Shown here: positions 21,044 through 37,041 of the stretch, piece by piece
Layout: each line of letters starts with the position of its first letter
How positions within the stretch are numbered: position 1 is the stretch's first letter
Assembly (NCBI GenBank): GCA_902780915.1
Contig: CACZHK010000005.1
Span: 62,001-126,000 of the forward strand
Direction of reading: 5' to 3'
Length of the DNA: 64,000 nt
Source of the DNA: Pseudoselenomonas ruminantium
GTDB lineage: Bacteria; Bacillota; Negativicutes; Selenomonadales; Selenomonadaceae
Notes under the pieces: model-generated
The model's input: the letters and a program-made list of their open reading frames with translations, nothing else
What the model was told of the DNA's origin: nothing
Databases searched by the model: none
Position numbers and translations under genes: made by a program

Positions 21044-21673
21044 TCAGAGATACTTCACAGCGATTTCTTTGATGACATTGAGCTGGTCATACAGGCTGGA
21101 TTTTTTGATTTCCAGAATCCTGCCAACTTCAGCGGCTCTGATTCCCTGAAGACGTAACCGAAAAATGTTGGCGAGACGCTTATCTTTGCGTTCAAGAGCG
21201 GCAATGATGGAATCTGCGGTGTCTTTAGCAATAAGGGCTGCGATATCAGGGTCGCTGGTGGATGGCTCAGTGCCTGATTCACGCATCTGCTCAATGGATG
21301 CGTTTGTGTTTTTCTGCACGTCCAAGCGTCCGGCGAGTTCGCAGCCAGCGCAACTTTTGTGATGGTCGCAGATGATACTCTTGCCCTTCTTGCCAGAAAT
21401 AAGGCAACGCCCAGCCCAACGAGCCTCGTCAATGAGCTCCCGGTCATAGGCTGAAGGGAACGTTGCCCATTCTTCTGGAACATCAACTAGGTAGCACTTC
21501 ATCCAAACGCCACCAATTTTTGACTTGGACATTCCTATGATATCAGGATGCTTCATCCGGTCACCATCGGTCATTGGCATCAGTGCGATGCAGTGGCCAG
21601 GGCGTTTCGATTGGAAACGAGGGTTCTTTTTCTTACCATAGATGATGTTCTTGTTGCGGTTCTGATTTGCCAT
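21044..21673 (-). CDS. Hypothetical protein with sigma-region-4-like HTH
   Basis: 209 residues. The C-terminal 45 residues (ANIFRLRLQGIRAAEVGRIL, then KKSSLYDQLNVIKEIAVKYL) look like a sigma region 4 or LuxR-type helix-turn-helix. The middle has a possible zinc site ICDHHKSCAGC, and the N-terminus is very basic. It may be a phage regulator. Its 5' leader can form two alternative hairpins, one of which hides the ribosome site (separate entry). Confidence 0.6.
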   Translation of the reverse strand: MANQNRNKNIIYGKKKNPRFQSKRPGHCIALMPMTDGDRMKHPDIIGMSKSKIGGVWMKCYLVDVPEEWATFPSAYDRELIDEARWAGRCLISGKKGKSIICDHHKSCAGCELAGRLDVQKNTNASIEQMRESGTEPSTSDPDIAALIAKDTADSIIAALERKDKRLANIFRLRLQGIRAAEVGRILEIKKSSLYDQLNVIKEIAVKYL

Positions 21674-21680
21674 GTCTTTT

Positions 21681-21774
21681 TCCTCCGTTTGCTCTGAAAC
21701 GGAGAATAGACGTATGGCTGCCAGTATTTGTCATGCGGTCACCTCATACGGATTGCTCCGTTTCGATGGTGACC
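21681..21774 (-). promoter_or_regulatory. Leader with mutually exclusive hairpins over the ribosome site
   Basis: Read on the minus strand: GGTCACC (21774-21768), GAAACGGAG (21764-21756), GGTGACC (21743-21737), CTCCGTTTC (21704-21696), then AAACGGAGGA with the Shine-Dalgarno (21690-21681), 7 bases before ATG. CTCCGTTT can pair perfectly with AAACGGAG and hide the Shine-Dalgarno, or pair with the upstream GAAACGGAG and free it; GGTCACC/GGTGACC can enclose the latter. This has the logic of a translational switch. Ligand or protein unknown. Confidence 0.5.
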
Positions 21775-22114
21775 AGTCGTGTGCAGACTGGCACTGTTAT
21801 TAACTTGGTATCCTCATCATTCACTGCACACTACCCTGCGGCCGCCGAAGTAAGCTCATGCTGAGGATTGGTCATTTCCATTCTGAACTTGATGAAAATG
21901 CTAGATAGGAATAAATCCCTATGCATTAAGTCTATAGGATTTACAATAGTAAGTACATCCGTGACAAAACCACTTACTAAATGCTGTTTTTTGCTGAATT
22001 ATGTAGCATAATTGTTCTATATTTGATATAATCAATAACTAGCACTTACGTTATCACTTACGAAAATGTAAAAAAAAAGAACCCGAAAGGGCTTAAAGAG
22101 AGTGTGGGAAGTAA
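21775..22114. promoter_or_regulatory. Non-coding region with four ACTTAC boxes
   Basis: No gene. The hexamer ACTTAC occurs at 21972-21977, 22044-22049 and 22056-22061 and inverted (GTAAGT) at 21949-21954. The last two are CACTTACG copies spaced by 12 bp, directly downstream of an extended -10 TGA-TATAAT (22027-22032). They look like operators for the gene at 22115. Confidence 0.5.
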
Positions 22115-23311
22115 ATGTCGAAATCAGATGAGACTTATTCGTTGGACAACGACCTATATCCGTTGGAAGGATATAAATGTATATTTGATGTCAAGTGCAA
22201 TAATAAAGGAGAGAAGATTCTGACTGTTAGAAATGATCTTGAGCAAAAGCTATATTATAGCCTAAGTGGCGAACATGGGCTTTGTCTTGATACACATTAC
22301 GGTTCAGTAAAAGAAGGAAATCTTGTACAAAAATTAATTTCGTTACCTGAAGATAGCCCACAATCTTTATTATCTTATTTACAGGAAACTGGATTTTTTT
22401 TTGCTATTCCTCAAAATTATGAGTATTGTGTTGATGCTGTGCAACTAAATGAAATTGTACATCGAATAAAGGCAACTGTTTTGTTAATGAGTGGAATATC
22501 AGAACCAGAACATAACTATGAACAGTTAATTAAATATGTTTTATATCTACTTTTTGAGAAACGCATTGAAATATGTTTAAATGAAAGAATAGGATACAAA
22601 TCTTGTGTACATGACATAGTAAAAATACTAAGCCAATCTAGCATTATTCCACTAAATGATACTGACTATGCAGAAGCAAATGAGAAGGGAACATACAGTG
22701 TTGAAGATACAGTATACAGGAAAGTATATGAAATTAATGCAGAGGAGTATTCTGATATAACAACTGGAGAAAAATTTACATTCGATTATCCGGGTATAGA
22801 TGATAGAAGGTATCAGGTGTTAACCTCAGTTTATAAAAATGGCACTGGTTTAGGACGCAATGATAGGATAGTAATAGATTTTCTTTTTCATTTTATGAAT
22901 GTTGTTGGTGTTATAAAATCTGTAAGCTATGCAGACGGGATCACATTTTACGCTAAGCCCAAAATGGAGAAAATGGATAAACATCTAAAACTAGGACTTA
23001 TCAATGTAGCAAGGATTGCTATTTCTAAAGAAATTAATTATAACATCGCAAGAATGAAGCCATATTACAATCCAAAGAAACTTGAACCTTTATGGATAGC
23101 ACCAAATTTAATTACGGCATATTATTTCGCCCTGTTTTATATGCGTCCTGGAAAGGAAATTTATAGAAAATGCGTCAATCCAAGTTGTTCGGGATATTTT
23201 TCTGTCAAAACATCAAACGCTAGGAAAAAATATTGCGATGCTAAATGTAGAAATGCAAGCAATCAAAGAGACCACCGATTAAGGGAAAAAAGAAAAGCCC
23301 ACAAGCTATAA
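22115..23311 (+). CDS. Hypothetical protein with CGNR-like zinc finger
   Basis: 398 residues, AT-rich. The first 330 residues show no known domain. The C-terminus carries YRKCVNPSCSGYFSVK and then NARKKYCDAKCRNASNQRDH, the Cys pattern (C-x4-C, C-x3-C) and basic tail of CGNR-type zinc fingers, suggesting nucleic-acid binding. It converges with the restriction operon, and its composition matches that operon, so both may have arrived together. An inverted repeat CCACAAGCT / AGCTTGTGG overlaps its stop. Confidence 0.6.
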   Translation: MSKSDETYSLDNDLYPLEGYKCIFDVKCNNKGEKILTVRNDLEQKLYYSLSGEHGLCLDTHYGSVKEGNLVQKLISLPEDSPQSLLSYLQETGFFFAIPQNYEYCVDAVQLNEIVHRIKATVLLMSGISEPEHNYEQLIKYVLYLLFEKRIEICLNERIGYKSCVHDIVKILSQSSIIPLNDTDYAEANEKGTYSVEDTVYRKVYEINAEEYSDITTGEKFTFDYPGIDDRRYQVLTSVYKNGTGLGRNDRIVIDFLFHFMNVVGVIKSVSYADGITFYAKPKMEKMDKHLKLGLINVARIAISKEINYNIARMKPYYNPKKLEPLWIAPNLITAYYFALFYMRPGKEIYRKCVNPSCSGYFSVKTSNARKKYCDAKCRNASNQRDHRLREKRKAHKL

Positions 23312-23360: not shown

Positions 23361-24629
23361 TTAACGAGCTAGATTAGCGTTGTCGGTTAATGCTTTGTCA
23401 ATAGTCTCAGCCATTTTCTTTTTTTTATTTTCTTTTGCACCGTAATAGTTACGCATGAGAAATCTGATATCGATTAAAATACCTTGTACTCTTTCGTAAG
23501 CATGCTTATTGCATTTCCATTCGCTTCTTGCTTCACCGATATTTAGAAAATGCTCTTTTGATTCGAATTTATTTTTATACCTGTTATATGGCATCAAGAA
23601 CGCATTATACACAGGCACGTCCTCACCGTAGTCCTTCTTTATTCTATCAAGGTTGTATATGTATTCGGCATATGTGATTTGTTTGTTAATTGATGAGGAT
23701 TGCGGTAAATGCGAAGGATTTGCTGATACGCCATATCGATAATACTTCGCATCTAGCACATATATTTTTCCATTATATAGCATAATGGAGTCTGGTTCCA
23801 GTGCGCTGTTACTTTTTGGGGTTTCATCATGTTTTAAGCACCAGTATGTATGTGGAAAATAATTTTCTTTATCTTTTTCACCAAATACCTCATCGATGAG
23901 TTTTTCCCACACATACTCAAATCGGTCAGTGCCAAAATAAAATTGCCTATCAGAAACAGGGTCGTCGAGAAACTCTAGCATTGCTTTCATAGAATTAAAC
24001 AACAATTTATCCTGCTCATTATGTGTAGAACTTAATTTTTTATTTAAAGCATAAATAAATTGGTCATGGTTTTTTATTATATGCGGGTCGGGTGGAAGGT
24101 CGGGAGTAAAAAGCCATCCCAATTTCTGGAATGCTTCGAAAACACAATACTTATGGATGGATGTAATTAAGTTATTTTCGTTTGGGGTGGAGCCACGTAC
24201 AACAAAATCCTGAAAAAAAGGAGAACCATCTTCCTGAAAAAAAGGCGTATTTTTTTTAAGCGATGCAGCCCAGTCGATACGTCCTTTGTCGCTACACTTT
24301 TTAACTGGTTCATTTTCTTTGTAATACGACCCGGTTTTTAGATATAGTCTGATAACACTAATGTAAGCGTTGACTGGAAAATCTACCGATTGAGGAGCTG
24401 CAAATCTCGGCATGTGAAGCACTCGATCTTTCTTCTCCATAAATTCAGCTAACACCGAAATTAACTGAAGAATATCATCACGAAGTTCCGCTTCGGATTC
24501 TGGAAGGTTATACCCTAAAGGAAAATATACCATAACTTTATCTGATACTGCTTTTATTCCTACAAATCTGTCACCATCACCATTTTCATTTACATGACAG
24601 CGGGAAACTAGATTTAAACCTAAATTCAT
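23361..24629 (-). CDS. LlaJI-type restriction endonuclease subunit (McrC-like)
   Basis: 422 residues. The nuclease core is LEPDSIMLYNGKIYVLDAKYY, i.e. PD-(x)n-D-A-K, in the C-terminal half, as in McrC/LlaJI.R2 proteins. The LlaJI systems pair this nuclease with an McrB-like ATPase, which is the preceding gene here. Start at 24629 (ATG) with AGAGG upstream; a GTG two codons earlier is also possible. Low GC like the other genes of this operon. Confidence 0.8.
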   Translation of the reverse strand: MNLGLNLVSRCHVNENGDGDRFVGIKAVSDKVMVYFPLGYNLPESEAELRDDILQLISVLAEFMEKKDRVLHMPRFAAPQSVDFPVNAYISVIRLYLKTGSYYKENEPVKKCSDKGRIDWAASLKKNTPFFQEDGSPFFQDFVVRGSTPNENNLITSIHKYCVFEAFQKLGWLFTPDLPPDPHIIKNHDQFIYALNKKLSSTHNEQDKLLFNSMKAMLEFLDDPVSDRQFYFGTDRFEYVWEKLIDEVFGEKDKENYFPHTYWCLKHDETPKSNSALEPDSIMLYNGKIYVLDAKYYRYGVSANPSHLPQSSSINKQITYAEYIYNLDRIKKDYGEDVPVYNAFLMPYNRYKNKFESKEHFLNIGEARSEWKCNKHAYERVQGILIDIRFLMRNYYGAKENKKKKMAETIDKALTDNANLAR

Positions 24630-24682
24630 GTACACAACCTCTTAATTATAAATTGATTTGAATTTGATTCATTGTCCTGTGC

Positions 24683-26605
24683 TTATGATTCATCGTCATT
24701 GAAATTGTTATCACTACTAGCTTCTTCTGATTTGCTTAGGATTGACTGTCTAAGATTTTCGTTAAACACACGATAACGTGTGTTTCCAGTTGTATTCATA
24801 AAGCCAGCGATAACTTCTTCGAGACTGTTATATTTTTTCGTGTTAAATGTTTCTGCATGTGAAAATTTAAAAGCATCATCCCAAAGATACTTAAGAACTT
24901 TTTCAGCAAAAATAGAGTTATTATGATGGGCGCTTATGAATTCCTTAGTTTCCTTACCAAAATCAGATTCGTCAATCCAGGTTAGATTATCAGAATTTAT
25001 AAAGTAAGCACCCAATCTTTTATCCTCAGAAGATGTAACATTGTTTCTACGTAAAATCTCATCATTTATCGCTTTACAGAAATCCTTCCATTTTACAGTA
25101 GTGTCGAGAATTTTTTTGGAGCCAAATTTATGATTGTCAAACGAGTTAGAAATCATTCGCATAATCCATCTGCGTTGAAAAGCGGTATCTAAAGTAAAAA
25201 CGTTTTGGTCAGATGTATTCATGGTGCCAATCAAAGATAAATTTGCCGGAATTCTAACTTTATGTTCTGGGTCTCCATACACTTCTTTTGCAATATTAGC
25301 ATTTGTGATGCCATATTCGCTTGTGCCAATAGGCAAGCTAGAGTTTATATCAGTAACTCTATCTAACAGCTGAAAAACCTCACCAAAAATTGCAGGCGCA
25401 TTTCCACGATTGATTTCTTCCACAATTAAGTAGTACATGTTAGACGGGTCATTATAAGCCTTTTTTAGTAGTTTTGTGAATGGCCCTGCGGTAAATTCAT
25501 ACCGTACTTTATCATCTCTTATAACAGGTAGTATTTGGCCGATAAAGTCTGAATACATGTAATCTGGGTGAAAAACTAACCGTTCCATTTTTGATTCATC
25601 GTTACAATATTCATGTTCGATTGTCCAGCTTTTACCTGAGCCTGGTACACCGTATAGTATGACATTAGTGCCACCTGTTAGGCGTTTTTCCTCAAGATTT
25701 TTTGAAATGTTTTCCTCATCGTCATCCTCATCGTTATCTGCAATCAATGATTCTAGGCCAATAAGCTTAGTTGCAGATAATTTTAGGTACGTTTCTACTC
25801 TCTTCTGATAATCCTCGAGAAGTTCTGAGTTAGGAGTTTTTGAAGTCACATTTCCACTGGAATAATTAAGATAAGGATTCATTCCTTCGGACAAGGCACT
25901 TTTTAGAATTCTAAGAGAACCTTTAGCTTCTTTGTCACCAGAGATATTAACAGCCTCGTTCGTTTCTAATATTTTTTTATAAACGCTGTTGAGATTGAAG
26001 ATAATATTGTTACCATTATCTACAAGCTTAAAGAGTGCGCTTTCTGCTAGAGCATTAAGTGCCAAGACTAATCTGCGTTCACATTCCGGATCAGTTGAAA
26101 TGTTTATTCCAATCCATGATAATAAAATCCGATAATATGATTGTAAATCATTTTCTATTATGCTGTGTATTATATCTATATTGGTAGTATATTTTAATTT
26201 TTTGGGATATCGACTGCCACCTGTTCTTTCCGCACTTGTAATACGTGTATCATCTGTAAATTCTACTTTGGCTATCTTCCAAATCAGTTCAAAAGCAACC
26301 ATTAGTGCTTCTATTTGTGATTTATAAAGCTGGTTACTTTCAATCGTAGAGCGCAAATCGTTTATATCAATTTGCTCATCCGCGCATGTTTCTGATAGTT
26401 CATCCGACACCCATTGTACCAAATCCTCTGGCATGCATATTGAGTCGCCATTGCTAACTGAGTAAATTAGCTCATGTGGGTGATTGGAACATTCCCACAG
26501 CAATATAGAGAGCCCAATTGTGCTTTTTACATGTGGGAGTGAGGACTTGATTCCTAGTTTCAAATCCAGTTCATTATATAGTTCAATATTTGCTGGTCTG
26601 TTCAT
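24683..26605 (-). CDS. McrB-like AAA+ ATPase/GTPase of the restriction system
   Basis: 640 residues. The N-terminal half (about 1-300) is unknown and probably contacts DNA. Then come Walker A NVILYGVPGSGKSW, Walker B YYLIVEEINRGNAPAIFGEV and TMNTSDQNVFTLDTAFQRRW, all typical of the McrB/LlaJI.R1 group, which translocates DNA to activate the nuclease partner. The start overlaps the end of the cytosine methyltransferase gene by 4 bp, and the nuclease gene follows 53 bp downstream. Confidence 0.85.
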   Translation of the reverse strand: MNRPANIELYNELDLKLGIKSSLPHVKSTIGLSILLWECSNHPHELIYSVSNGDSICMPEDLVQWVSDELSETCADEQIDINDLRSTIESNQLYKSQIEALMVAFELIWKIAKVEFTDDTRITSAERTGGSRYPKKLKYTTNIDIIHSIIENDLQSYYRILLSWIGINISTDPECERRLVLALNALAESALFKLVDNGNNIIFNLNSVYKKILETNEAVNISGDKEAKGSLRILKSALSEGMNPYLNYSSGNVTSKTPNSELLEDYQKRVETYLKLSATKLIGLESLIADNDEDDDEENISKNLEEKRLTGGTNVILYGVPGSGKSWTIEHEYCNDESKMERLVFHPDYMYSDFIGQILPVIRDDKVRYEFTAGPFTKLLKKAYNDPSNMYYLIVEEINRGNAPAIFGEVFQLLDRVTDINSSLPIGTSEYGITNANIAKEVYGDPEHKVRIPANLSLIGTMNTSDQNVFTLDTAFQRRWIMRMISNSFDNHKFGSKKILDTTVKWKDFCKAINDEILRRNNVTSSEDKRLGAYFINSDNLTWIDESDFGKETKEFISAHHNNSIFAEKVLKYLWDDAFKFSHAETFNTKKYNSLEEVIAGFMNTTGNTRYRVFNENLRQSILSKSEEASSDNNFNDDES

Positions 26606-27672
26606 TTATCATACACTCCTTGAATATCTGCCATTATGACATTTGCAATTGCCCGAGCTAATAGTGGGGGAACTGCATTTCCAACTTGCTTCATTTGAGA
26701 GCCTTTATTTCCAATGAACTTAAACGTATCTGGAAATGATTGAATACGTGCAGCCTCTCTTACGGTGATACAGCGATTTAAATAGGGATGAGTAAATTTA
26801 CCGGAAGAAGGGGTATCAAATCTTGTAGTAATTGTAACAGAAATTTCATCCTTTCTCATTCTGGTCCAAGTGCCACTATATATAGATTTGGTTAAGTGTT
26901 CCTTTGGTAAGACTTCTTTGCCTGCGTTAGGAGGAATCATGGATAAACGCTCTAGGGCAAGAGGGGAATGTTTGGTGGTTACATGATTATACAGCATAGT
27001 ACTGTCTGTACGCATTTGCTTTTGATAATCAGTCTGTGCATCTAATTTATAGTGTTGCACGCTTTCGCCTTCTCCTGAATTTAAATAAGATAAATCACTT
27101 ATTGCATCCCATATAGTGACTGTTTTATTTTGAGGTAATGGTAAATCAGGTGCATTTGAATTCAGTTTTCCAATTATTACAGCTCGACGTCGGTTTTGAG
27201 GAACACCAAAGTCCGATGCATTAAGAACTCCTGATTTTAGCTTATAGCCCATGGAATTGAACAGTTCTGTTATTTCTTGCTTAAAGAATCCGTGTTCGGC
27301 TGTTAAAAGATTGGGTACGTTTTCCATAACGAAATATTGGGGGCGTACAAGTTTGACTACTTTAACGTAATATTTAAAAAGAAAGTTTCTTTTATCATGT
27401 ATAGTCTTGCGCTGACCTTTTTGAGAGAAACCTTGACATGGAGGACCACCAATTACGACATCCACAATTCCTCTGTATGATTCAAATGTTTCTTTGAGAT
27501 TTAAGGATGTTATATCTCCGACAATCATTTTAGTTGATTGATGATTTATTTTGTAAGCATTTGCAATGGATGAATCATATTCATTGGCCAGAATAACATC
27601 AAAGCCAGCTTGTTCAAAGCCTAGTGAAAGACCTCCTACTCCTGCAAATAAGTCAATCACCTTAGGCTTCAT
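26602..27672 (-). CDS. DNA (cytosine-5) methyltransferase
   Basis: 356 residues, complete motif set: I DLFAGVGGLSLGFEQAGF, IV GGPPCQGFSQKG with catalytic Cys, VI FVMENVPNLL, VIII QNRRRAVIIG, and X GNAVPPLLARAIA. It is the protective methylase of the operon. It starts inside the last codons of the upstream methyltransferase behind AGGAGG, so the two are coupled. Confidence 0.95.
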   Translation of the reverse strand: MKPKVIDLFAGVGGLSLGFEQAGFDVILANEYDSSIANAYKINHQSTKMIVGDITSLNLKETFESYRGIVDVVIGGPPCQGFSQKGQRKTIHDKRNFLFKYYVKVVKLVRPQYFVMENVPNLLTAEHGFFKQEITELFNSMGYKLKSGVLNASDFGVPQNRRRAVIIGKLNSNAPDLPLPQNKTVTIWDAISDLSYLNSGEGESVQHYKLDAQTDYQKQMRTDSTMLYNHVTTKHSPLALERLSMIPPNAGKEVLPKEHLTKSIYSGTWTRMRKDEISVTITTRFDTPSSGKFTHPYLNRCITVREAARIQSFPDTFKFIGNKGSQMKQVGNAVPPLLARAIANVIMADIQGVYDK

Positions 27673-28393
27673 TATTATCCTCCTGAATTCTCTCTCTAGA
27701 CATATTAAAATAATCTTCGCTTAACTCAATTCCTATGAAATTGCGACCGGTTCTTTTAGATACAACTCCAGTGGTGCCACTGCCCATAAATGGGTCTAGA
27801 ACCCAATCATTCTTATTAGACAAAACTTCAATAAAATATTGTATAAGTCCCTCTGGTTTTTGTGTTGGATGCTTTCCATATTTTCGCTCACTGGAAGGAG
27901 TTACAGATGTTTCTACAAAATCATGTAATACCTCGCCGTTGTTATTAAAAATTCCTGTTCTAGTTTGGTAGGTGAAATATATCCAAGCTTCTGTAGAATT
28001 TACAAAATGCAGATTCATATTTCTAGGCATAGGATTTTTTTTGTGCCATATACCGGTGGTTTTGTAATAGAAACCATGTTTAGTAGCTAGTTGAATAATT
28101 GTTTCAACCTTAATGATTGCCATAAACATTATCATCGAGCCACCGTTTTTCATAACTCTAGCGGCTGACTCGAAAAAGTGATCCATGGACTCGCTCCAAT
28201 CTTTGAATCCCATATCGTCCCATCCAGCGGAACCAAAGAAATTATCTCGCATTCGCTTGAGATTTGTATCTCTTTTTTCCATAAATCTTCCAAGATTATA
28301 TGGAGGGTCTGTTAATATTAAGTCAATTGAATTTTCATCTAGACCGGTCATTGCCGCAATGCAATCATTATTAAATAATCTAGTCTCTGCCAT
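27662..28393 (-). CDS. DNA methyltransferase, DPPY type (N6-adenine or N4-cytosine)
   Basis: 243 residues. DPPYNLGRF is near residue 30 and the SAM motif VLDPFMGSGTTGVVSK near the C-terminus, so the order is that of the beta class. Together with the 5-methylcytosine enzyme it would mark the two strands of an asymmetric site, as in LlaJI-like systems; in the original LlaJI both methylases are of the cytosine-5 type, so this pairing differs. Confidence 0.9.
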   Translation of the reverse strand: MAETRLFNNDCIAAMTGLDENSIDLILTDPPYNLGRFMEKRDTNLKRMRDNFFGSAGWDDMGFKDWSESMDHFFESAARVMKNGGSMIMFMAIIKVETIIQLATKHGFYYKTTGIWHKKNPMPRNMNLHFVNSTEAWIYFTYQTRTGIFNNNGEVLHDFVETSVTPSSERKYGKHPTQKPEGLIQYFIEVLSNKNDWVLDPFMGSGTTGVVSKRTGRNFIGIELSEDYFNMSRERIQEDNNEA

Positions 28394-31385: not shown

Positions 31386-32516
31386 TTATTCCTCCGTTTG
31401 TTCAAAGTCAGCATTTGTGACTGTATTGTACTCTGGGCGCTTGTCGGTTTCTGCGACCAGCACCGGCTTCCCGCTCGGCTTTGTGATGAGATCTGCGAGA
31501 AGTTCTTCGAATTGCTTCTTGCCCAGCTTCTTGGTCATTGCTGTGATGCCAAGGAGCTTTTTTTCATAGGGGTCATACCCAGCTTCTTGGACTGCCTGGG
31601 CTACAGCCTTTTCGTCTGTATATTTCCGATTGGCTCGGCCCTCGACCACTTTGTAACCATAATAGTGCGTTCCGTTGAGCGCCTGCTGCAGTGCATAGTC
31701 CTGCAAATCAGATGCCCAGGATACCATGCCGTCCAGCAGGGGCAGGATGGCAGCAATTTCCTCGTTGGTGAGTTCTGCCGGTTCTTTAAAATCCTCGTTA
31801 CTGATACCAAGGTTATATTCAGCACGTGCCCTGCAGGTGGCCTTGACCTTGCAGAATTTGCAATGGTCGCCAGGATTGAATTCACCCTGGCCAGCTATAG
31901 CCAGTTTGGCTGCTGGGGCGAGGACTGTGTCTGCCCACTTCAGCAGTTCCTCAGTGGAGATTTCCCAGGAGTCCACGTTTTCTCGCCTTGGCTGATAGAT
32001 GGTGAGCCTGACGGTCTTGATGTCATACAGCATGCCGAAGGTGTCGAGTGCCCCAAGGGCGTAACACATCAGCTGACTGTTTTCCGTGGCACTTACCAAC
32101 ACGCCAAGTCCGTTCTTATAATCCGTTATCTGCAGCAGACTGTCGGCTATGATGACGCAGTCGCCGGTTCCGAATCCCTCCGGCACCCAGCGTGAGAAGT
32201 CCAGTCTTTGCTCGATGCCGATGAACGGGTCTTGGCAGAACTTCTTGGCTTCTTCGACCTGTTCCATGACAAAATCCCTGTAGCCTTCAGCACAGTCCTG
32301 CATTTCCTGGCTGTAATGAGCCAGTTGTGACACAGGATTTTTGGCTGGCCAGCCCAAAGCCGTCTTTAGCAGATACTCGCACAGGCTGTGCGCTTCCGTG
32401 CCTTCTTGAGCGTAGGGACTGCCACGGTCAGTGACCTCGGCATTGAGGAGGGCTGACCTTGGACAGGCAATCCACCTCGCACTGGAAGATGCGGAGCAGA
32501 TTGCGTGTTTAGGCAT
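31386..32516 (-). CDS. DUF2800 protein, predicted PD-(D/E)XK nuclease
   Basis: 376 residues. SSARWIACPRSALLN at the N-terminus, GTGDCVIIADSLLQITDYKN (D...DYK nuclease motif) in the centre, and a C-terminal cysteine cluster CKFCKVKATC, the plan of AddB/Cas4-like iron-sulfur nucleases. It probably acts in phage recombination or replication. ATG 32516 overlaps the end of the upstream gene and has GAGGTG upstream. Confidence 0.85.
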   Translation of the reverse strand: MPKHAICSASSSARWIACPRSALLNAEVTDRGSPYAQEGTEAHSLCEYLLKTALGWPAKNPVSQLAHYSQEMQDCAEGYRDFVMEQVEEAKKFCQDPFIGIEQRLDFSRWVPEGFGTGDCVIIADSLLQITDYKNGLGVLVSATENSQLMCYALGALDTFGMLYDIKTVRLTIYQPRRENVDSWEISTEELLKWADTVLAPAAKLAIAGQGEFNPGDHCKFCKVKATCRARAEYNLGISNEDFKEPAELTNEEIAAILPLLDGMVSWASDLQDYALQQALNGTHYYGYKVVEGRANRKYTDEKAVAQAVQEAGYDPYEKKLLGITAMTKKLGKKQFEELLADLITKPSGKPVLVAETDKRPEYNTVTNADFEQTEE

Positions 32517-32865
32517 CGCCAATCACCTCGGCCTCCTTCATGATGGTCGAGAAGAGTTCTGGGTGTCCTTCCAGTTCGGTCAGGCAGCTCACATTGTACC
32601 TGTGCAAGAGCGCCTTGACCTCCGGCCCATGTCCCTGGGCAGCTTTGCCAGACAGGGTGCCACGTACCTTTTGAAAGGGAATCTCTTCAACAGTCGGTTC
32701 TTCCTTGGGCTTCTGGGGGGTGACTTTAGCTTTCGTATCCGTTTTAGGCGGTGTACTTTTTTCTGGAGTCGCATCCGTTCTGGAGATTGCATCTGCGATA
32801 AGTGCAAAGCCTTCGCTGATTTTTCTCAGCCCTGCGACCAGGGCATCTGTGTCTTTCTTTTTCAT
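32509..32865 (-). CDS. Hypothetical phage protein (Rrp5-annotated type)
   Basis: 118 residues. An N-terminal helix, a Lys/Pro/Thr-rich linker (residues 30-65) and a C-terminal helical domain (VRGTLSGKAAQGHGPEVKAL). Homologues upstream of DUF2800 are often labelled rRNA biogenesis protein Rrp5, a label I would not trust. First gene of the leftward replication operon, with GGAGG before ATG. Confidence 0.75.
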   Translation of the reverse strand: MKKKDTDALVAGLRKISEGFALIADAISRTDATPEKSTPPKTDTKAKVTPQKPKEEPTVEEIPFQKVRGTLSGKAAQGHGPEVKALLHRYNVSCLTELEGHPELFSTIMKEAEVIGDA

Positions 32866-36316: not shown

Positions 36317-36634
36317 ATGAATAAAGCATTTGCAGACATTGACGCAGTTCAGCCGAAGGAAGAGCCGCTGAAGCTTAGCGAGGTCTTTTCCATGATGAAG
36401 ACCATCAAGCCGGGGGACAAGGTGGAGTTTGACAGCGTGGGCGCATGTAACACAGCAACACAGGCCAACCGCAATACGGCAGCCACCATTCCTGCCACGG
36501 CAACAGTAGAGAAGGTTTATCCGAGGTATGTAAGGACGAGACTCAAAGGTGGAGCGGCTGAGTGTGTAAGCTGGGACAGCATCCGTCATTTGAACGGCAA
36601 GCCGTGGCCGCTGTATGCACAGGAGCGCAGCTGA
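36317..36634 (+). CDS. Hypothetical phage protein
   Basis: 105 residues. The C-terminal half (EKVYPRYVRTRLKGGAAECV) resembles the small beta-barrel-like proteins encoded next to VRR-NUC genes in phages. ATG 36317 has GGAGGA upstream. Its stop overlaps the VRR-NUC start (TGATG). Confidence 0.6.
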   Translation: MNKAFADIDAVQPKEEPLKLSEVFSMMKTIKPGDKVEFDSVGACNTATQANRNTAATIPATATVEKVYPRYVRTRLKGGAAECVSWDSIRHLNGKPWPLYAQERS

Positions 36635-37041
36635 TGACGGAAAAGCAGGTCGAGCAGAAACTTGTAAAGGCTGTCAAGACTTGTGGTGGTCACTGCATCA
36701 AGTGGGTGGCTCCGGGCTGGAATGGTGCACCGGACAGGATTGTTCTCCTGCCCGGTGGTCGTATCGGCTTTGTCGAGGTAAAGCGTCCCGGTCAAAAGCC
36801 ACGGGCGATACAGACAGTCAGGCACAGGGAACTGCAGGAACTGGGATTTGATGTATTTGTACTGGATGAGCCGGGACAGATTCACAGTATCCTTCAGCAG
36901 ATAAGGGGGATTGAGGGTGGCGGTTCAGATAAGACAGTGGGAAAATCTCGCCAATGCCATCATCGTCAAGGCAGCCAAGGACTACCGGGCGGCTTACAGG
37001 GCAAAGAAAAGGAATCCGCAGAATATAAGGGTCAACGCTGA
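36634..37041 (+). CDS. VRR-NUC domain nuclease
   Basis: VRR-NUC endonuclease of phage replication/recombination. QVEQKLVKAVKTCGGHCIKW, GWNGAPDRIVLLPGGRIGFV and EVKRPGQKP give the PD-(D/E)XK core (PDR...EVK). Relatives are about 95 residues and end near QQIRGI; here the frame runs on for another 40 codons over the next gene in a different frame, giving a 135-residue product with a low-complexity basic tail. Natural overlap, lost stop and sequencing error are all possible. Confidence 0.88.
   Translation: MTEKQVEQKLVKAVKTCGGHCIKWVAPGWNGAPDRIVLLPGGRIGFVEVKRPGQKPRAIQTVRHRELQELGFDVFVLDEPGQIHSILQQIRGIEGGGSDKTVGKSRQCHHRQGSQGLPGGLQGKEKESAEYKGQR

Follow-up and report, generated by a model that had tools for sequence, protein, structure and literature searches.

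A leader related to the DUF2800 RNA as a putative translational switch of a sigma-like early phage gene in Pseudoselenomonas ruminantium

Results

The window studied here, a stretch of 64,000 nucleotides of Pseudoselenomonas ruminantium DNA, carries a prophage gene preceded by a leader with two mutually exclusive potential helices, one of which would cover the ribosome-binding site. We give a probability of roughly two in three to the reading in which this leader, a relative of the Rfam family RF02960, acts as an RNA switch on translation and turns an early phage gene on or off, with off as the default. Comparison with related sequences confirms that the leader is a real, conserved feature whose pairings are kept by matching mutations, and the structure of the leader RNA is well supported.

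All segments of the leader lie on the minus strand of the window, upstream of a gene for a protein of 209 amino acids (21673-21044; start codon ATG, 21673-21671). The preliminary description, which gave no strand, had named three segments and a GGTCACC/GGTGACC helix; all of them are present, and their coordinates and minus-strand orientation are established here. The shared arm CTCCGTTTC (RNA CUCCGUUUC, 21704-21696) is complementary either to the copy of the Shine-Dalgarno (SD) segment AAACGGAGG (21690-21682), giving helix P5, or to an identical upstream copy, GAAACGGAG (21764-21756), giving helix P4; the assignment of the latter as the putative anti-sequestor arm draws on covariation and on loci fetched by protein. 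P5 is predicted by folding as the hairpin UUCUCCGUUU/AAACGGAGGA (21681-21706), which covers the main SD segment AAACGGAGGA (21681-21690). The strands GGTCACC (21774-21768; GGUCACC in the RNA) and GGTGACC (21743-21737; GGUGACC) form P2, which is found in the fold and is invariant in the relatives, where the search pattern fixed it; the 3' strand together with the two preceding bases makes up GAGGUGA, the SD of a leader ORF. Within P2 lies the P3 hairpin ACGGA-GCAA-UCCGU (21748-21761), a competitor of P4. Further upstream, the H1 hairpin CCAGUC/GACUGG (21773-21791) overlaps the two outer pairs of P2, and a 5' hairpin domain, P0 (21812-21868, outer helix AUCCUCA/UGAGGAU), was assigned in the window from the fold and from its alignment to the first hairpin of RF02960. 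Two long-range inverted repeats 5' of H1 (21776-21868), GTCGTGTGCAG/CTGCACACTAC and ATCCTCATCAT/ATGCTGAGGAT, could rival H1.

The minus strand from 21661 to 21800 folds with -54.2 kcal/mol (z -6.3), a value equalled by none of 200 shuffles. The predicted fold contains the GGTCACC/GGTGACC helix and the SD hairpin, where CUCCGUUU is the partner of the SD; part of the upstream arm lies inside the ACGGA-GCAA-UCCGU hairpin. The calculated probability that the SD is unpaired is 0.01, and it rises to 0.98 once the shared arm is blocked. When the sequence was shuffled with dinucleotides and SD preserved, using a separate set of shuffles for each length, an arm fitting perfectly to the SD region as well as to a segment upstream appeared in 21 of 3,000 shuffles for 6 nt, in 0 of 3,000 for 7 nt and in 1 of 3,000 for 8 nt; the suspicion that exclusive helices of 8-9 bp are unlikely to arise by chance is thus borne out.

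Relatives of the leader were collected by several routes. A DNA search of 150 related genomes matched six genomes including the window's own and yielded a single homologous leader, which lies in Pectinatus and precedes a different sigma-like gene; on reading, L006 was genuine and L007 unrelated, and L008-L010 are matches of 22-27 bases. A covariance model (R1) built from the window and Pectinatus leaders found two further leaders, L056 and L057, in 379 genomes of the class, the latter upstream of the same gene class as the window leader. L056 (1497-1646) is a leader of the same clade before a truncated non-sigma ORF, as though the sigma-like gene had been lost. Two weak matches of R1, L058 and L059 (E 0.03-0.1), contained no such leader on reading. 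A second model, R2, returned just the two known leaders from 398 genomes of the phylum and none from 10 genomes of the order of G510, and a leader search of plasmids gave no match. Scans of viral contigs for the exact cores GGAGCAATCCGTATGAGG and CGGAGCAATCCGTATGA recovered no leader other than that of Pectinatus, along with two coincidental matches in coding sequence; with at most one mismatch the core matched 43 of 380 genomes of the class, and among the loci read out the context was present only in the window and Pectinatus leaders, the others looking like chance. The window protein as sole query found no relative in viral contigs, genome contigs or phages.

A pattern derived from the four leaders (CTGGTCACC, gap, GAGGTGACC, gap, ATG) matched at 22 places among viral contigs and at 89 among genome contigs. 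From 110 pattern matches, in a run that included L011, L057 and the window, 59 were kept that had a downstream CTCC-type motif and a G+C content of at most 60%. Removal by eye of two chance matches (L074, L121) and of two duplicates (L125, L153) and addition of L056 gave 56 leaders, of which 38 were non-redundant once near-identical ones had been removed; these come for the most part from Clostridia, with some from Gordonibacter and Ruminobacter. Since the six-base CTCC-type motif served as a filter, the 3' arm is selected for in part in this set.

Across the 38 non-redundant leaders, P4 (the upstream arm with CUCCGCUUC) is paired in 96.5% of 342 cells, with both-sided changes at three of the nine pairs (11 cells); its covariation score was matched by none of 500 shuffles, and partners slid along the sequence paired in 38-60%. 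H1 is similar, with 96.8% of cells paired, both-sided changes in 11 cells and a covariation score reached by 0 of 500 shuffles. For P3, 90.3% of cells are paired and three pairs have a both-sided change, a modest covariation that as many as 27 of 500 shuffles equal on those measures. P1, which is predicted by the fold, showed no covariation in the relatives, and P2 cannot be assessed in this way because the pattern fixed it and made it invariant by construction. In 63 leaders with 19 distinct arm pairs, several mis-extracted arms included, the five positions unused in finding the arms form pairs in 77 of 95 cells, where 69.5 were expected, an excess equalled by 9 of 10,000 shuffles. Moreover, the triplet has been rewritten jointly in all three segments: as GAGATGGAG/CTCCATCTC/AGATGGAG in L199 and L203, a version also present in L204, and as GGAATGAAG/CTCCATTCC/GAATGGAGG in L196, which scores 110 bits to RF02960 and whose version spans L196-L198. 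A generalised triplet test on 17 non-redundant leaders found a near-perfect triplet in six (0 of 200 shuffles each); ordinary members of the clade such as L192 score low here because their P5 and P4 share only UCUCC and P5 is lengthened by UUCGG/CCGAA. The proposal that the leader can hide or free the ribosome site thus gains support from exclusive helices that are maintained by compensatory changes among relatives.

Folding of the 38 leaders points in the same direction. The SD was found in 37 of them, and in 35 it pairs with the shared arm with a probability of at least 0.74, the two low ones being L109 and L056. Blocking the arm raises the median unpaired probability of the SD in the 37 leaders from 0.20 to 0.77; even then the SD is still mostly paired (unpaired at most 0.30) in L057, L072, L073, L109, L128, L143, L154 and L056. 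P4 is imperfect in L072 and L073.

The triplet is not a property of every leader in front of this gene. Loci fetched from viral contigs by protein only numbered 37, five of which had too short an upstream sequence; 20 of the 32 testable ones have the arm and a partner with at least eight of nine pairs (17 with nine, three with eight), and among the other twelve, 11 have no arm by the pattern and L201 has only 7 of 9 pairs. For named phage records with the gene, counted in nine of ten records, the triplet is present in four (L231, L233, L235, L236) and absent from five. Homologous leaders that lack the triplet, which were to speak against the switch, therefore do exist beside those that have it, and the triplet is best described as a conserved property of one leader class and not of every leader of the gene family. 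Upstream of the sigma-like gene, L195, L229 and L232 have a hairpin followed by a T run, judged terminator-like by eye, and no triplet, which suggests that the gene is attenuated by more than one route.

At the gathering threshold, an Rfam scan gave no match within the window. Under a permissive threshold, RF02960 matched the window leader with 21.8 bits (E 0.083 for 401 bases), below the gathering score of 60.2, as do the clade leaders L094 (36.5 bits), L088 (37.3) and the Pectinatus leader (33.6). The alignment is full-length in the window and in L094 (model 1-158 of 158), with some non-standard pairs. Six of ten clade loci scanned match RF02960 (28.1-36.5 bits), and L080, L200, L202 and L205 have no match at E 1. 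A clear member of the family, L170 (138 bits), lies upstream of the same gene class, and five loci with RF02960-like leaders, among them L196 with its rewritten triplet, score 110-142 bits; scans of L199, L203 and L216 gave no match. Another locus, L172 (31 bits), sits between housekeeping genes and was dropped. A set of 16 RF02960-like leaders, made up of 17 stretches with the canonical pattern minus L174 and L185, which are not this RNA, plus L170, has GAAACGGAG, CTC(C/T)GTTTC and a GGAGG-type SD in all 16. The Rfam model stops before CTCCGTTTC; thus the platform, i. e. the 3' part of the triplet, is outside it. The statement that no known riboswitch core is recognisable has to be revised, since the sub-threshold match runs over the full length of the model and clear members share the architecture, the triplet and the gene class. 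Judged by its sequence, the window leader is a diverged RF02960 relative that has gained a leader ORF. RF02960, the DUF2800 RNA, is an orphan cis-regulatory family in Rfam and belongs to the Weinberg 2017 collection. A literature search on DUF2800 RNA/RF02960 found no paper on the RNA; it did not cover the original description, which may already report it.

The regulated gene (21044-21673, minus strand) encodes a protein with a conserved four-Cys cluster and, as judged via its relatives, a C-terminal sigma-70 region-4-like helix-turn-helix. An earlier suggestion of a helix-turn-helix and a possible zinc site holds for the conserved cysteines, and the sigma-like helix-turn-helix is found in relatives but not for the window protein directly, which itself matches nothing in Pfam at 0.001 or in PHROG at 0.01. 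The cluster C-x(6-16)-C-x(2-5)-C-x2-C occurs in 48 of 55 downstream ORFs, the seven misses including truncated genes and some wrong gene picks. A profile of nine relatives matches, in its C-terminal part, RNA polymerase sigma factors of known structure (best E 2.5e-4), and two relatives match PHROG sigma-factor families (best E 7e-10); Pfam matches to sigma region 4 among relatives are below the cut-off.

The gene belongs to a prophage for which Pfam identifies DUF2800, a DUF2815/Enc34 single-stranded DNA-binding protein, a family A DNA polymerase, an SNF2 helicase, terminase, portal, Clp protease and capsid. The DUF2800 gene of this prophage (31386-32522) is about 10 kb from the window leader. 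In L064, the sigma-like gene is followed by those for DUF2800, a single-stranded DNA-binding protein and DNA polymerase, in that order, DUF2800 being the next Pfam-identified gene downstream. PMC9226167 gives nine genes as common to all Candidatus Heliusviridae, eight of which were found in the window by Pfam; the ninth, VRR-NUC (36562-37041), was assigned by eye, a Pfam match being absent at 0.001. Genes of the Ca. Heliusviridae-like prophage span 28749-56208. The DNA polymerase gene is separated from the sigma-like gene by a restriction-modification island (23361-28393, minus strand) with an LlaJI-type endonuclease, an McrB-like AAA protein and C5 and N4/N6 DNA methylases. A divergent gene (22115-23311, plus strand) gives a weak hit to the CGNR zinc finger and aligns over nearly the full length to PHROG 30403, whose function is unassigned.

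Finally, the leader contains an ORF that had escaped the preliminary description and that has its SD in the GGTCACC/GGTGACC helix. It comprises 33 codons (21633-21734, minus strand; MTNTGSHTSILRFRANGGKRHGKSEPQQEHHLW), crosses the SD hairpin and, in a different frame, also covers the main start codon; the shared arm is read as CTC CGT TTC, Leu-Arg-Phe, and translation would continue beyond the main SD. In the clade, the 3' strand of P2 is inside GAGGUGACC, a good SD followed by ATG. A start and an SD of at least four bases in the CTC-CGT-TTC frame are present in 37 of 38 clade leaders as compared to one of 16 RF02960-like leaders, which suggests that the ORF is an addition within the window's clade. 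The distance from start to arm is 33 nt in 28 leaders, 30 in seven, and 39, 34 and 32 in one each; start and CTC are in frame in 36 of 38, the frame being broken in L065 and L086. The search pattern required SD and ATG but not the frame, and L056 and L057, which were found by a model that needs no start codon, as well as L205, which was found by protein, are likewise in frame. The peptide often contains Gly-Ser-His and Gly-x-Leu-Arg-Phe. The residue that precedes Leu is free to vary (Y, C, F, L, D, G) and the hairpin dictates the later part, so that a strict arrest peptide is not evident. A tiny ORF, ATGAGGTGA (21747-21739), was rejected as a minimal uORF since its start codon is not conserved, being ACG in L057 and displaced to a TTG in L056, and a programmed frameshift from the leader into the main gene is ruled out, as the relative frame is 0, 1 or 2 among relatives.

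Discussion

The segments, their covariation and the leader ORF can be read directly from the sequences. With these elements, a switch may be envisaged as follows: in the stable fold, P2 and P3 would retain the upstream GAAACGGAG arm and P5 would cover the main SD, so that the sigma-like gene is off. If the upstream arm took CUCCGUUUC, P4, which is exclusive with P3 and P5, would free the SD and turn the gene on. Where the leader ORF is present, as in the window's clade, ribosomes translating it would have to melt P5, which may be a second way to expose the main SD. That the SD is hidden in vivo, that P4 corresponds to the on state and that leader translation plays a part are our inferences. 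A terminator-like site was searched for on the minus strand within the leader and none was found, which favours translational control. The off folds have -54.2 (window), -54.3 (L094), -57.5 (L170) and -56.3 kcal/mol (L199), and the nested P4 folds -39.8, -46.9, -44.2 and -44.3 kcal/mol, respectively; pseudoknot estimates that leave out the loop cost are -42.2, -45.4, -42.0 and -45.2 kcal/mol. In these four leaders the off fold is thus about 7-16 kcal/mol more stable than the P4 folds, and P4 requires help or a kinetic route: it might form during transcription, via a bound factor, or as ribosomes on the leader ORF melt P5.

It is conceivable, if somewhat unlikely, that the leader is primarily a leader-peptide attenuator, in which P5 is opened by a ribosome that translates the M..TGSHTGYLRF leader or stalls in it, the early gene responds to the state of the host ribosomes, and P4 merely holds the hairpin open or shields the leader. 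The in-frame start and SD of the clade leaders, their spacing of 30, 33 or 39 nt to CTC, and the frame of L056, L057 and L205 argue for such a role. However, the switch occurs in RF02960-like leaders that have no such ORF, the search pattern itself demanded SD and start codon, and the free residue before Leu, the hairpin-set later part and the two leaders that are out of frame weigh against it. A combination of both ideas, i. e. a widespread lineage of gut phages in which a sigma-like early gene is under the control of an RF02960-type anti-sequestor switch and a leader peptide, with the translation of early phage genes depending on host ribosome activity or drug stress, is a doubtful extrapolation at present.

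We consider it unlikely that the leader is a ligand-binding riboswitch with P0, H1, P2 and P3 as the aptamer and P4/P5 as the expression platform. The filing of RF02960 as cis-regulatory, the conserved core CGGAGNAAUCCG and the covariation of P3 and H1 fit this idea, but the regulated gene is non-metabolic, and no conserved pocket beyond the core came to light. Improbable to a similar degree is a kinetic timer, in which P4 forms first on the nascent RNA and allows a brief translatable period before the stable off state is reached: the order of the segments, with both P4 arms made before the SD, and the preference for the off fold would suit it, but P3 is made early too and competes. Most improbable is a DNA operator, in which a phage regulator binds the GGTCACC/GGTGACC and TGCCAG/CTGGCA repeats. 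An invariant P2 and a non-covarying P1 are what one would expect of protein sites, but the pattern had fixed P2, RNA covariation is seen in P3, P4 and H1, and the segments overlap the SD.

If the translation-level switch is the correct reading, an orphan RNA family gains a testable expression platform and a fitting regulated gene, a sigma-like factor that heads the replication genes of abundant gut prophages. The lambda cIII mRNA is another early phage gene with alternative structures, and the leader resembles it in that the start region of an early phage gene would take part in alternative folds; the architecture is different, however, and no sequence relation is known. Drug-inducible erm and cat genes are controlled by translational attenuators in which a ribosome on the leader opens a hairpin. 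In sequence and predicted folding, the window leader likewise has a leader ORF with an SD and an overlapping hairpin that holds the main SD; unlike erm and cat, it precedes no drug-resistance gene, has an upstream SD copy as the putative anti-sequestor and has relatives with the switch but without the ORF. From RF02960 it differs in its score (21.8 as compared to 60.2 bits), in the exchange of P2 for GGUCACC/GGUGACC and in the presence of the leader ORF, whereas it shares with this family the order of elements in the Infernal alignment (5' hairpin, P1, P2 and P3 with the core GAAACGGAG), the phage gene class downstream and the triplet of GAAACGGAG, CTCCGTTTC and SD.
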